DNA from: Laccaria trichodermophora
Lineage: Eukaryota > Basidiomycota > Agaricomycetes > Agaricales > Hydnangiaceae
Reading direction: 5' to 3'
DNA: 64,000 nt
NCBI GenBank assembly: GCA_018417955.1
Contig: JACTVC010000055.1
Coordinates: forward strand, 1-64,000
Part shown: piece after piece, positions 58,791 through 64,000 of the stretch
How the letters are laid out: every line of letters starts with the position of its first letter
Position numbering within the stretch: position 1 is the stretch's first letter
The notes under the pieces: model-generated
Seen by the model: the letters and a program-made list of their open reading frames with translations, nothing else
Told to the model about the DNA's origin: nothing
Databases searched by the model: none
Program-made: the position numbers and the translations under genes

Positions 58791-59614
58791 ATGGCTCACG
58801 CTTCCGACTCCTCTTTTGAAAAATTGCTTGAAGCTAACGCTGCATGGGCACACGGCGTCACAGAAAAAAATCCGGATTTCTTCAAGAACTCGGCCGCGGA
58901 AAAGCAAAAGCTGTGCTCGCTCTTTTATGCTGTGATTATTTGCTCAGTTGAACATTCCAGACTCTCTGGATTGGTTGCTCCGATTCTAGGGTTCCTGAAT
59001 CTGTCATCACTGCCGCTCGTCCAGGAGATATTTTCGTGCATAGAAACATCGCCAAGTAAGACGCCTTTCTAGACATCTAACTTGCTTGTTGAATTCCGCT
59101 CTTCCATAGCCAGGTGCACTTGCACGATTCAAACGTCTTGTCAGTGCTGAAATACGCTGTCGATTTTTTGCACGTTCACCACGGTATCTTCATTATATTC
59201 CCCAACTTGATAATGCCCTGACCCGAATCCTTCCTCCCTCCCACTCAATTATGTATAGTCGTCGTCGGCCATACCGTATGCGGAGGCGCAGATGCGTGTC
59301 TAAACGCCGTGAAGAACAATTACCCCGACAACCAAACAATCAACACATTGCCCGTCGAATCGCCTTTGAACATCTGGTTGACGCCTCTCACGAAATTTAC
59401 ACGATCATTACCGCTTTCAGTCACCCCTCCTGATCAAGCTCTTAATTTCGTTGTTCGCGAGAATATAAAGAAACAGGTGGAAATTTTGGCACAGACTGAT
59501 ACCATTCGCGACGCGTGGGCTCGTAAAGATGTGGTTCAGATTCACGGCTGGGTTTATGATCTTGCCACTGGCAGGCTCAACGATCTCCACATTACTCAAG
59601 GACACCAGAAGTAA
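58791..59614 (+). CDS. Beta-class carbonic anhydrase, first splice junction apparently damaged
   Basis: Beta-carbonic anhydrases interconvert CO2 and bicarbonate with a zinc held by two Cys and one His. Exons: [20 protein letters not shown]...AAEKQK (from 58791); [31 protein letters not shown] (to 59054); [25 protein letters not shown]; then [20 protein letters not shown] through [20 protein letters not shown] and [16 protein letters not shown] to TAA at 59612-59614. Zinc ligands (Cys in CSDSR, His and Cys in GHTVC) and the Asp/Arg dyad are present. Introns 2 and 3 splice in phase. Intron 1 does not: the only good donor (GTGCTC, after ...AAGCT) joined to CATTCCAG puts exon 2 out of frame by two bases. 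Either an unusual junction is used or the gene is a recent pseudogene. Confidence 0.8.
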
Positions 59615-59906
59615 AAAAGCCCCGAGCGATCCATAGGTCGTAAATTAAAAAAAGCTCAAATTGTACAATACATATGCTCTTGTGTAAAAAAACTATCGTG
59701 GTCACCAAGTGGTCACCTCTTTTCTCTACTAGGACGGCGAGGAGTCCGAGTCGTCGCGATGAAAGTAAGATTTGAGCTTGTCGAAAGCCCATAGTACGTC
59801 ACTTTGAAAAAATATTTCTGTCTTTATATTCTGTCATAATCGTATTTTTTTCTCTGTCTCTGTGAAGTGAAGCTTGTTGGAAGACAATGGAAGCTTGATG
59901 CATTTC
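59615..59906. other. Spacer between carbonic anhydrase and transposon
   Basis: About 290 bases with no gene; it ends in the left target duplication ATTTC (59902-59906). Confidence 0.6.
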
Positions 59907-59930
59907 GTGGGGGTGGGCAATTCTCAGTAT

Positions 59931-59990
59931 GTGTGACACGCGTCACATGAGTGACATCACGTCACAGTGACCCCAGACAGTGACCCACTC
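59931..59990. promoter_or_regulatory. Left subterminal GTGAC/GTCAC array of the transposon
   Basis: Six GTGAC or GTCAC pentamers start at 59933, 59942, 59951, 59961, 59967 and 59980. The first four are 9-10 bases apart and alternate in orientation. Mirrored by five copies inside the right end. Likely transposase-binding sites, by analogy with subterminal motifs of other DNA transposons; this is inference. Confidence 0.6.
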
Positions 59991-60675
59991 ACTTTGCATT
60001 GCCTACACCACATCTTTTTGAGAAATGAAAGAGGAAATGGTATCTAATAAGTCTGATGAACAAGATTATTCATGTGATATTTTTTGTAGTGGTAGTAATA
60101 TTGCCAGCTGATAAAAACCCCTGCCAAATGCTGCCCACTAGTAGCTCATTCCTGCAGCAAGCCAGGAGCTCATCCAATGACTTTGCCTCTTTGGTATGAT
60201 TTTTTCTATACATAAAAACCTGTTGATTGTTAAGATTATTTTTTTTTAAAAAAACTTTCTTTGTGGAAATCTTTGCTAAAAAGTGTCATATCTCAGGTTT
60301 CAAGGTCAAAAATTAAAAATCTGATCTTAACAATCCATTCCTGCAGCAAAAAAATGGTGGATTTGTTATTGGCCCATATCCTGAAAGTGAGTTGTTGTTG
60401 TGTTCTTCATGAAATAGAGCATACTCATGTTAAAGGCCTTGGTAAACAACCTACAACAAGGGAGATCAACAAAGATAGCTTGCTTATCATCTTCAACTCT
60501 AACATCTAACTGTCAGGAGCTTGAATATAGGTTCAAACCAACTGATTGTAAGTAGATATCCATAGATCTGGTCCTTCAGATACTGAAATACTACATTTTA
60601 GCTTGATTCATCAAACTTACTTCAAGTTCAAGCCTAGATCACCCTGTGACTACATCTTGTACTGAACTGGTCATT

Positions 60676-63600
60676 ATGCCAGCACAACGATCTGCAGCTC
60701 AAAAGGAAGCACTTGCTAAGGGTAGAGAAAATGCTCATTCTTCTGTGAAAGACCTTGAGGAGGCCTTCAAAAAGGCTAACACTGATCTTGAATCTGCTAC
60801 TGTGAAACTTAGTGTACTGGAAGCAGATCTGCATGATGCTCGACTTGAGTGTGGTAATCTTCGCCAGAAACTAGTGCTCAGCTCAGATAAATGTAAGAGC
60901 TTGTCTGAGGAGCTAAAGCTGCAGAAAGAAAAGAACACAAAGCTGTATCAGGACTTGCGGGTTGAACGACGAGGTCGTCAACGAACACAAAATCGAAGAG
61001 ATATTCTAGAGAATCAAATCTTGCTCTTGAAAGATGCTGGACTGGAAGCCACTAAAGATATGAAAAAGCTGATGACACATGCTGATCTTGCTGTTAATAA
61101 GCTTATTGGAGCCGAAAAAGCTAATGCTGGTTTAAGAACTGAACTTTCTAAAGCTCTTCAACAGTATCAACTTGATGTGGAGGCTTCTCGTGCTAAGCTT
61201 GCTATTGCTGGCAAAAAACTCAGGGATGTCAGGGCTTCAGTTGTAAAGCTTAAAAAAAGCATGGCTCGATTTACAGTTAACAAGGAAAAGGCTATAAGCA
61301 AGGCTACAGATGCTCTTATGAAAAAAAACTCAGTCCATCATCTTCTTCATAAGGGTAAATACACAGAGGAAACTAGAAATCTCATCCGGATCCTTGTCAA
61401 AGCTGGTTGTGGACGTGACTACATAACTGAGGTCATCTCAGCAGTATTACGAACTGCAGGAATCACTGTAGTTGGAAGTATTAGCCGTCGCACAGTCTCT
61501 CGTGTCATTCTTGAGGGTTACTATGCTGCTTGTATACAAATTGGGTATGAGATGCAGGAAGCTGCAGGTATGTTAAATTATGCTAATAAATACAAGATGT
61601 TTATGAAGCCTTTCAGGTATCACAATTAGTGCAGATGGTACCAGCCATCGAAGCATCAATTATAACTCTCGTCATGTGAATCTTGAGGCTGATTCATATT
61701 CTGCTGATGCTGTATCAGAGGTTAAACAACATGTACAAAGATTTCTTGGTATCCAATCCTCTGTGGATGGAACTAGTGAGCAGGCTATAAAAGATTGGGA
61801 TGAGACTTTGAAAAAAATAATCAGGATTTTTAATAATAGCCCACTTGGCCATCGCACTGGACATATGCTTCGTCTGGTGGATATATTTGTTAAGCTACTG
61901 GGAATGCACACAGACCATTGTGCAAAGGAAAAAAAAGACTATAAGCTTCTGAAAAAGAAGAAGGAAGCAGCAGTACATCAAGTTCTTGGTGAAAAAGAAA
62001 TTCTTGAAAAGAGTAATGATGAATTGGTTCCTTCTTTCCTGGAGGCCAACAAACAGATGATTGAGGATGTTGGAGGACAAGCTAAATGGGATGCTCTTCC
62101 TGAAAAAGAAAGAACTGAGTTACTGGCAGGGATGATGGAAAGGCTAGTTGTGAAATTGGGGGCAGATGCATATGAACAAATGCCAGAAGAAGAGAAGAAG
62201 ATGCTGAGCCTTTTTATCTGGGCTGGTTGTGGCTGCCATAAAGACTTGAATACTGTAAAAGGAGGGTATGCTGCTATTGTTACTTGGTGGAAAAGAAATC
62301 CTTCAAAGACTGGCCCTATAAAACTTCCTAATCGTGACAATGCTGCAATACTGAAAAATGCACCTGGGTCAACACAAACAGATGCAAAAACAAAGGATCA
62401 GCAAGATGCCTTTGATAAAACAGAAAGTGGGGGCATAAAGGCCACACAACTTGCTGGTGCCCTTTTAAACCACAAGGATGATAAAAAAGGACATCATGAT
62501 GAGTTTCGTGCATGGTGGCAAAGTCATGTTGGGACCCCTTTCACATTTCCAGATACATCAAACACACGCTTTCAGTCACATTGTGAGGCTGCAGCCATGT
62601 TGTTACTTCATCTTGACTACTTTATTGAATTTCTGGAGTACGTTAGAGACAAAAAAGAGACCAGAAAGTTCAACAACATGGAGAATAATTTATATAAGGC
62701 ACTACACTGCAATGCAACAAAAACAGAACTTGCAGTCTTAGCATTATATGGCCAGGCTGTCTCCCATCCTTATATGAAAGAAATCCGGGGTGATCCAACA
62801 TTGAACATGCTGAACCTTGGCCCACTTCATAAAAATATTCACTCATTCATGAAACGTATTAGTGAAGATCCAAGTTTTCTTATTGGCCCAAATGTCACCC
62901 ATGAGACTGGTACATTTAATGGAGAGCCCTGGCACAATGAAGAGGTTATTGAAGCCATCCAAAGGCTTGCACCCTCCTTTCCATATTTGAAGGAACTAGT
63001 GGTCGTATTCTTTGAAGGTGCAGGTGAAACTTGGAAGCGATTTACTTCAGAGTTTGCTCCTGGAGGTCTTATTGATGAAGCAACAACAGATGAGAGAGCC
63101 CTGGCTTGGATGCCACCAACAAATGATGTAAATGAGGGTGCACTTGGTTCATTTCGTGTTCTAATGCAAAAGCAACCACAGTTAACTTTATTGCAATACA
63201 ATGCACAAGCCATGTTTGCTCAGAATAATACAAGAGCATTCATGAAAAAGAAGCTTGGACCAGATGACTTGAAATATATCTATAAGATGGCCAGAGAAAC
63301 AGCAGGGGAAGAAAAGAAAAGGCATGAAGAGATTATCAAACATACAGAGGAGCACATTAAAAAGAAAGAGGCTTCAAGGAGTAAAAGAGCAGCAAAGGCT
63401 GCTGAGAAAACAAAAAGAATTGCAGCTGTTCAACTTATTTTTGACAAAGAGAGGATAAATGATCTCAAGGGAATGGCTTTATATGATCACCTGGATGCAT
63501 TCAAAGCAGCTGGTGCCCCTCTGGAAGGTATCAACAGGAAGACAAGAGTTCAGATTATTAGGGTGGCTTTGCAAGAGGCAATAGATAAAAGGGAAGTAGG

Positions 63601-63742
63601 AGAGTGGATACCAAATATTTCAGAGGCAGGACATGAGGATAGTGACTCTGGTGAGGAATTCCAAGATATTGTGGATCTAGATAGCTCAGCAGAGCTTGAG
63701 AGTGGATGGGAGGATGAAGATGAAGTGGATGATGATGATTGA
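60676..63742 (+). CDS. Putative transposase of unassigned family, two exons
   Basis: Exons 60676-61567 and 61617-63742 (GTATGT...TTTCAG, 49-nt intron, phase 1) encode about 1,005 residues. An upstream in-frame ATG at 60646 also exists; MPAQRSAAQKEALAKG is the more natural start. Residues 20-210 are a Lys/Glu/Leu-rich coiled coil. Then HLLHKGKYTEETRNLIRILV (helical), and right across the splice site GITISADGTSHRSINYNSRH with Asp304, a likely first catalytic acid on a beta strand. Next come FIWAGCGCHKDLNTVKGG (C502, C504, H505, D507; metal-site-like), SNTRFQSHCEAAAMLLLHLD (recalling the TRW-S block of hAT-type RNase H folds) and WMPPTNDVNEGALGSFRVLM with Glu804, a candidate last acid. The C-terminus is a basic helix (KKKEASRSKRAAKAAEKTKR) followed by an acidic tail. 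Location within intact inverted repeats makes it the probable mobilising enzyme. Catalytic roles are inferred. Confidence 0.8.
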
Positions 63743-63901
63743 GATTGGTAGAGGAGTAATCACTTGAATTTGTACTTTTAAAATCAATTTATTCTCTTAC
63801 TTGACTTTGAAACACATTGAGAACAATATTTAAAAGGTACTCTAAAAAAATCAGCCAATTTGGAGCAGCAGAGGTAAAGTTACACATGAGTTTTGGTGTG
63901 G

Positions 63902-63963
63902 GTCACCCTTTTGGGCAAATCCTGTCACAGGTGTGACGTCACGTGTCCACAGACACATGTGAC
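63902..63963. promoter_or_regulatory. Right subterminal GTGAC/GTCAC array of the transposon
   Basis: Pentamers start at 63902, 63924, 63933, 63938 and 63959, within 80 bases of the right terminus. Same motif as the left array, different spacing. Confidence 0.6.
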
Positions 63964-64000
63964 GTTGCCCATCCCCACATTTCGACTTGCGAAGGTCATG

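Follow-up and report, generated by a model that had tools for sequence, protein, structure and literature searches.

What kind of mobile element lies near the right-hand end of the stretch of DNA analysed here, and to which group of transposases does its protein belong? The stretch (hereafter the window) comprises 64,000 nucleotides of Laccaria trichodermophora (contig JACTVC010000055.1 of assembly GCA_018417955.1, positions 1 to 64,000), and the original prediction, made from its letters, was a complete, apparently young DNA transposon of an unassigned superfamily. Direct reading of the sequence reveals a complete 4,070-base element at 59908-63977, with one gene and matched inverted ends. The element is very probably a complete DNA transposon with a predicted hAT-fold DDE (Asp-Asp-Glu) transposase, likely of the cut-and-paste type, and, given that its protein is unlike every tested transposase family by sequence, we take it to mark a deeply branching lineage, either next to hAT or within it.

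The terminal inverted repeats of the element are 13 bp long and pair at 12 of 13 positions, and CATTTCG abuts TGGGG...CCCCA on either side as a perfect 7-bp repeat, a frequency of about 5.5e-5 being expected by chance for an exact abutting 7-mer between random flanks. The original prediction had combined 14-bp ends, GTGGGG(G/A)TGGGCAA with 13 of 14 bases paired, with a perfect 5-bp duplication, ATTTC. The pairing itself stands, but the flanking G and C had been counted as part of the element, which is how the 5-bp reading arose; because the perfect 7-bp repeat, with which other copies are concordant, accounts for this outer G/C pair, we reject a 5-bp duplication with GTGGGG ends in favor of 13-bp ends and a 7-bp duplication. 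Two other predicted features were confirmed as they had been described. Subterminal arrays of GTGAC/GTCAC occupy the outer 120 bp at both ends, with six repeats on the left and five on the right, counts reached in 2 and 5 of 5,000 first-order Markov resamples, respectively, and the G+C content of the element (0.403) differs from that of positions 1-59900 of the window (0.482).

Searches of the host's own genome (a 59-Mb assembly in 77 contigs) uncovered further copies, most of them broken. The nearest, at C8:911219-915194 (C8:911k), is 97.5% identical to the window element in ungapped positions, with five gap runs, 78 transitions and 21 transversions; it is broken, and its ratio of nonsynonymous to synonymous substitution rates (dN/dS) against the window gene is 0.94 over 978 codons. 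Thus, the supposed youth of the element agrees with the intact gene and duplication in the window and is countered by the state of its closest relative. More diverged are the copies on C76 (with a duplicate on C68; 64% amino acid identity in exon 2), on C21 (46%, open for 994 residues without an intron) and on C29, C50 and C8 (C8:1092k; 33-37% in exon 2). The ends of C8:911k were set by alignment, those of C76 by pattern (691203-696054, with 15 of 16 end bases paired) and those of C21 and C8:1092k by a joint score for ends and duplication. The copies on C29 and C50, with unresolved ends, were omitted from the count of duplications, and the C68 copy was dropped as a 99.98% duplicate: the 30-kb contig C68 repeats C76 at this identity over 6.3 kb (C68:7233-12083 against C76:691203-696054), which reflects either redundancy in the assembly or a recent segmental duplication.

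The genome also contains gene-less elements with the same type of ends. The pattern TGGGGNTGGGCAA occurs 29 times, compared to once for its reversed control, and four convergent pairs of it bracket elements of 949 or 950 bp that are 94.5-98.7% identical to one another; unpaired TGGGGNTGGGCAA ends were also retrieved from three places. These elements match the window element in short stretches, mostly in its outer parts, with little of the interior represented; in the two elements checked, no frame runs longer than 90 codons without a stop. The left-end pattern TGGGGGTGGGCAA of the window element recurs in all four, at C8:911k and in C76/C68. Moreover, TGACCC stands 73-74 nt from either end of the window element, of C76 and of all four 949/950-bp elements; at C8:911k, which lacks 20 bp on its left side, it stands at nt 73 from the right end and at nt 54 from the left. 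C21 and C8:1092k lack TGACCC, and C8:1092k also lacks GTGAC/GTCAC. The 949/950-bp elements resemble non-autonomous elements that may be moved by a shared transposase.

TGGGG is present at all nine loci with resolved ends; farther in, the ends vary between copies along with the protein. The duplication measures 7 bp at six of these loci and 8 bp and 6 bp at one each, and is missing from one. Repeats of 7 or 8 bp directly abut the ends at four loci (the window, C21, C8:1092k and one 949-bp element), and at three others (C8:911k and two of the 949/950-bp elements) a 7-bp repeat is accompanied by 1-3 extra bases on one side; at one locus the repeat is no longer than a 6-mer, set off by 5 and 4 extra bases, and C76 shows, in place of a 7-bp duplication, nothing beyond a 5-mer at distances of 1 and 7 bases. 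Altogether, at four insertions the end and the duplication are separated by 1-5 extra bases, on the left at L002, on the right at L073 and L075, and at both ends of L072. Since the duplication entered the score by which the ends of C21 and C8:1092k were chosen, these two do not count as independent support for 7 bp; among the six independently set loci (C8:911k, C76 and all four 949/950-bp elements), a repeat of at least 7 bp lies within 3 bases of the ends at four, with a chance of about 6e-4 per locus. The check proposed earlier, for other copies with GTGGGG-type ends and 5-bp duplications, was borne out for TGGGG-type termini and not for a 5-bp duplication, most loci having 7 bp instead. 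No empty site was found for the window element in a search with its left flank only, which is unique in its own genome. The left flank of C8:911k (C8:909918-911218) is a repeat with 62 matching genome stretches, itself included; four repeats like it were examined for an empty site, and in each the similarity ends 15-28 bases before the insertion.

The gene of the window element is intact and, as originally described, consists of one uninterrupted frame of 1,005 amino acids in two exons. The splice is supported by homologues that continue across the junction, by the C76 copy, interrupted at the same residue, and by the C21 copy, which is open without the intron. In the predicted model of the homologue P0004, a helix spans residues 31-226 and further helices extend up to 302; the helices that follow the coiled coil of exon 1 may bind DNA. 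Homologues number 94 by one sequence search and 293 by an alignment search (120 of the 293 listed). Many are metagenomic sequences for which no host is named, and the named ones among those listed are fungal, mostly labeled "hypothetical" or "uncharacterized", with two "glutamic acid-rich" proteins. Six host look-ups (Laccaria, Paxillus, Trametes, Artomyces, Sistotremastrum and Botryobasidium) all led to Agaricomycetes, in six orders, and we take the remaining named genera to belong to the same class. The parts of the literature covered by our search yielded no description of the family, which, along with the protein names, bears out the earlier statement that there are large Agaricomycete proteins lacking a transposon description.

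Family libraries were equally silent. Pfam reported no family for exon 2 of the window gene at E <= 10, and sub-threshold matches only for exon 1 and for nine long homologues, where the best were to coiled coils. For the 66 members of alignment A5 (the window exon-2 frame, the own-genome frame L030 and 64 of 214 listed database matches, picked mainly for length without the coiled coil), no transposase was among the best 25 of 50 families, each of which matched one or two members, and NCBIfam gave a single sub-threshold match for three proteins. The claim of a complete DNA transposon is thus supported, for a group that these libraries lack. No relatives were confirmed among 79 and 93 pattern stretches from IMG/VR and prokaryote genomes, respectively.

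The case for a transposase comes from the conserved residues and the predicted fold of exon 2. The predicted first catalytic Asp, D304 (model strand 3-12), is D in 60 of the 60 A5 rows with a letter there; the second, D397, which follows model strand 95-100, is conserved in 66/66 rows of A5 and 55/56 of alignment A1; and the predicted catalytic Glu, E804 (model helix 505-520), in 65/66 and 47/47. Between the last two lies a CxxH motif, with both C and H in all 66 A5 rows (in A1, C in 55/55 and H in 56/57), at a median of 104 residues (A5) from the second Asp, the distance from the second Asp to the Glu being about 404. Comparison of predicted models indicates an RNase H core with a large all-helical insertion, most similar to that of Hermes, so that the RNase H fold, suggested earlier as a check, is borne out by structure prediction; the P element, RAG and ISCth4 were rejected as the nearest fold because they rank below Hermes. 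The original prediction saw no hAT hallmarks in the protein, which is true of the sequence and not of the predicted fold and motif order, both of which are hAT-like.

These likenesses raise the possibility, which we consider substantial albeit short of an even balance, that the family is an ordinary, very divergent clade within the hAT superfamily (Hermes, Ac and the fungal DUF659-type hAT), with only a fuller hAT tree missing. The features in common include the CxxH motif, the predicted DDE core with its large helical insertion before the Glu, the order of motifs, and, if its proposed pairing with Hermes holds, an Arg-aromatic pair, R615-F616 (R in 63/66 A5 rows). Furthermore, a 7-bp duplication and a fungal host are shared with hAT7 of the rust fungus Puccinia, which, in the sections cited here, is assigned by transposase similarity and groups with fungal and plant hAT (PMC12730594). 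In contrast to hAT7, no such similarity links the family described here with the tested hAT proteins: profile comparison with 17 of 22 fungal hAT matches gave a probability of 0.3%, and Hermes was not among the profile matches listed. PF05699, the hAT C-terminal dimerization domain, has 89 matches in the genome, none inside the matched stretches of family copies, and is not among the Pfam families listed for the window protein, the A5 members and the nine long homologues. Residues 1-297 of the window protein and the nine long homologues contain no BED zinc finger, only weak or coiled-coil matches below the cut-off, and unlike hAT the family has a long predicted N-terminal coiled coil. Its TGGGG...CCCCA ends depart from the hAT consensus [T/C]A[A/G]NG, as given in the cited part of PMC6027215, and its mostly 7-bp duplications compare with 8 bp in hAT (5-7 bp in hAT5-hAT7). 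The 104 residues between the second Asp and the C, which contain an extra predicted helical insert, compare with D248 and H268 in Hermes. Finally, when residues are tentatively paired with Hermes W182 and R318-W319, both proposed hairpin places lack Trp: two residues after the first Asp, T occupies the W182 place in 59/59 A5 rows with a letter there, and F or Y the W319 place in 66/66, whereas the fungal hAT proteins compared keep a W two residues after the first Asp, with the consensus TRW. Given the lack of sequence similarity, of PF05699, of a BED finger and of hAT termini, together with the 104-residue spacing, we file the family as a hAT-fold lineage of open rank and not as hAT. Abr1 of Agaricus, which likewise has a 7-bp duplication, is a possible lead. 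In the cited excerpt of PMC10051438, a homologue is termed hAT-type.

It is improbable that the family belongs to another superfamily with a CxxH-type motif, such as Dada, Kolobok, KDZ or MULE, and that Hermes ranks best only because hAT structures have been solved. To our knowledge, there are no solved structures of Dada, Kolobok or KDZ, and the absence of these three from the fold list carries no information on them. CxxH or DxxH is common to hAT, Kolobok, P, MuDR and Dada, and Dada further resembles the present family in its 6-7-bp duplications and presence in mushrooms (PMC3706591). As characterized in the cited portions of that source, however, Dada has DxxH and zinc fingers at both protein ends; the families described there have no terminal inverted repeats and insert into small-RNA genes, and those of Laccaria carry a DnaQ domain. 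None of this was seen here. The present ends are 13-bp inverted repeats; the second Asp and the Glu are about 404 residues apart, against 176 in Dada-U6; eight loci (elements with flanks, 31,454 bases) gave no Rfam match at the gathering score, and no tRNA was found in the window; and no zinc fingers appeared in the Pfam results for the window protein, the A5 families listed and the nine long homologues, a search that used no Dada model. Kyakuja, of KDZ, has 7-bp duplications and is found in Agaricomycetes, but its termini, according to the cited passage of PMC12730594, are CA..TG without inverted repeats, unlike the TGGGG ends described here. The KDZ domain PF18758 has at least 182 stretches in the genome, none of those listed inside a family copy, and is absent from window exon 2 (E <= 10), from the best 25 of 50 A5 families and from the nine long homologues; no MULE family is among the Pfam matches listed either.

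A passenger gene, or a domesticated host gene, caught between the ends of another transposon would fit the lack of observed movement and the broken state of most copies in this genome, and is nevertheless very hard to credit, with four diverged copies (C8:911k, C76, C21 and C8:1092k) between TGGGG-type ends (other genes inside were not searched for), inner ends that vary along with the protein, and near-invariant catalytic residues.

For a cut-and-paste transposon of the hAT fold, the following mechanism can be proposed by analogy. The N-terminal region would bind the subterminal GTGAC/TGACCC repeats, a role that in Hermes belongs to the BED domains, as stated in the cited part of PMC10368747; D304, D397 and E804 would, with metal ions, cut each end, with CxxH assisting the second-strand attack; and the freed 3' ends would join target strands 7 bp apart, repair leaving the 7-bp duplication. 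The same enzyme could mobilize the 949/950-bp elements in trans. Because no BED finger was found and both proposed hairpin places lack W, the hairpin step may differ. In Kat1, per the cited sections of PMC4763223, CxxH is needed for hairpin formation and the W319 counterpart is not essential, so that the missing W does not rule out hairpins.

With regard to rank, we see the arguments as evenly poised on whether this is a superfamily-level eukaryotic DDE lineage, spread across Agaricomycetes, that has the hAT fold but evolved apart. Such a lineage would have lost, or never had, the hairpin tryptophans; it would possess a second helical insert before CxxH and a coiled-coil N-terminus, rather than BED, recognizing TGGGG ends; and it would generate 7-bp duplications, sometimes set apart from the ends by 1-5 extra bases, a sign that end cleavage might proceed differently or less precisely. 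With the element read as a transposon of the hAT fold, hundreds of large mushroom proteins of unknown function would form one transposase family with defined ends, by which its members could be masked, counted and tested, and the hAT-fold group would be wider than sequence profiles detect. Furthermore, the retention of CxxH without the hairpin tryptophans would provide a natural experiment on the closing of flanking hairpins by hAT-type enzymes, and the intact copy with the matching 949/950-bp elements a two-part system ready for an excision assay.

Table 1. Features of the window element and positions of the gene-less elements
Feature	Positions	Strand	Basis or remark
Left target-site duplication CATTTCG, 7 bp	59901-59907		direct reading
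Left terminal inverted repeat TGGGGGTGGGCAA	59908-59920	+	12/13 with right end
Left subterminal GTGAC/GTCAC repeats	59933-59986	+	6 in outer 120 bp
Left TGACCC, nt 74 of element	59981-59986	+	
Exon 1, residues 1-297 and first base of codon 298	60676-61567	+	predicted long coiled coil, then helices
Predicted 49-nt intron GTATGT...TTCAG	61568-61616	+	homologues, C76, C21
Exon 2, with a predicted DDE catalytic domain of the hAT fold and an acidic tail	61617-63742	+	
D304 codon, first Asp of the predicted catalytic triad (strand beta 1)	61634-61636	+	alignment A5, model
D397 codon, second Asp of the predicted catalytic triad (after beta 4)	61913-61915	+	alignments A5, A1, model
C502-x-x-H505 motif, after beta 5	62228-62239	+	alignments A5, A1
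R615-F616, proposed counterpart of Hermes R318-W319	62567-62572	+	pairing inferred from motif order
E804 codon, Glu of the predicted catalytic triad (in the helix that follows the all-alpha insertion)	63134-63136	+	alignments A5, A1, model
Right subterminal GTGAC/GTCAC repeats, TGACCC at nt 73 from right end	63900-63963	-	5 repeats
Right terminal inverted repeat TGGGGATGGGCAA	63965-63977	-	pairing with left end
Right target-site duplication CATTTCG, 7 bp	63978-63984		direct reading
Four 949/950-bp elements, L072-L075	C1:4045765-4046713, C2:1009606-1010555, C12:897427-898375, C45:2056389-2057337		

Classical hAT (89 PF05699 stretches) and KDZ (at least 182 stretches) far outnumber the present family in this genome. 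Within the window, a frame matching carbonic anhydrase (PF00484) lies at 59309-59614, with the element about 290 bp downstream, and the 5' non-coding part of the element contains a 21-nt inverted repeat (86% identity, arms 69 nt apart) at 60225-60335.
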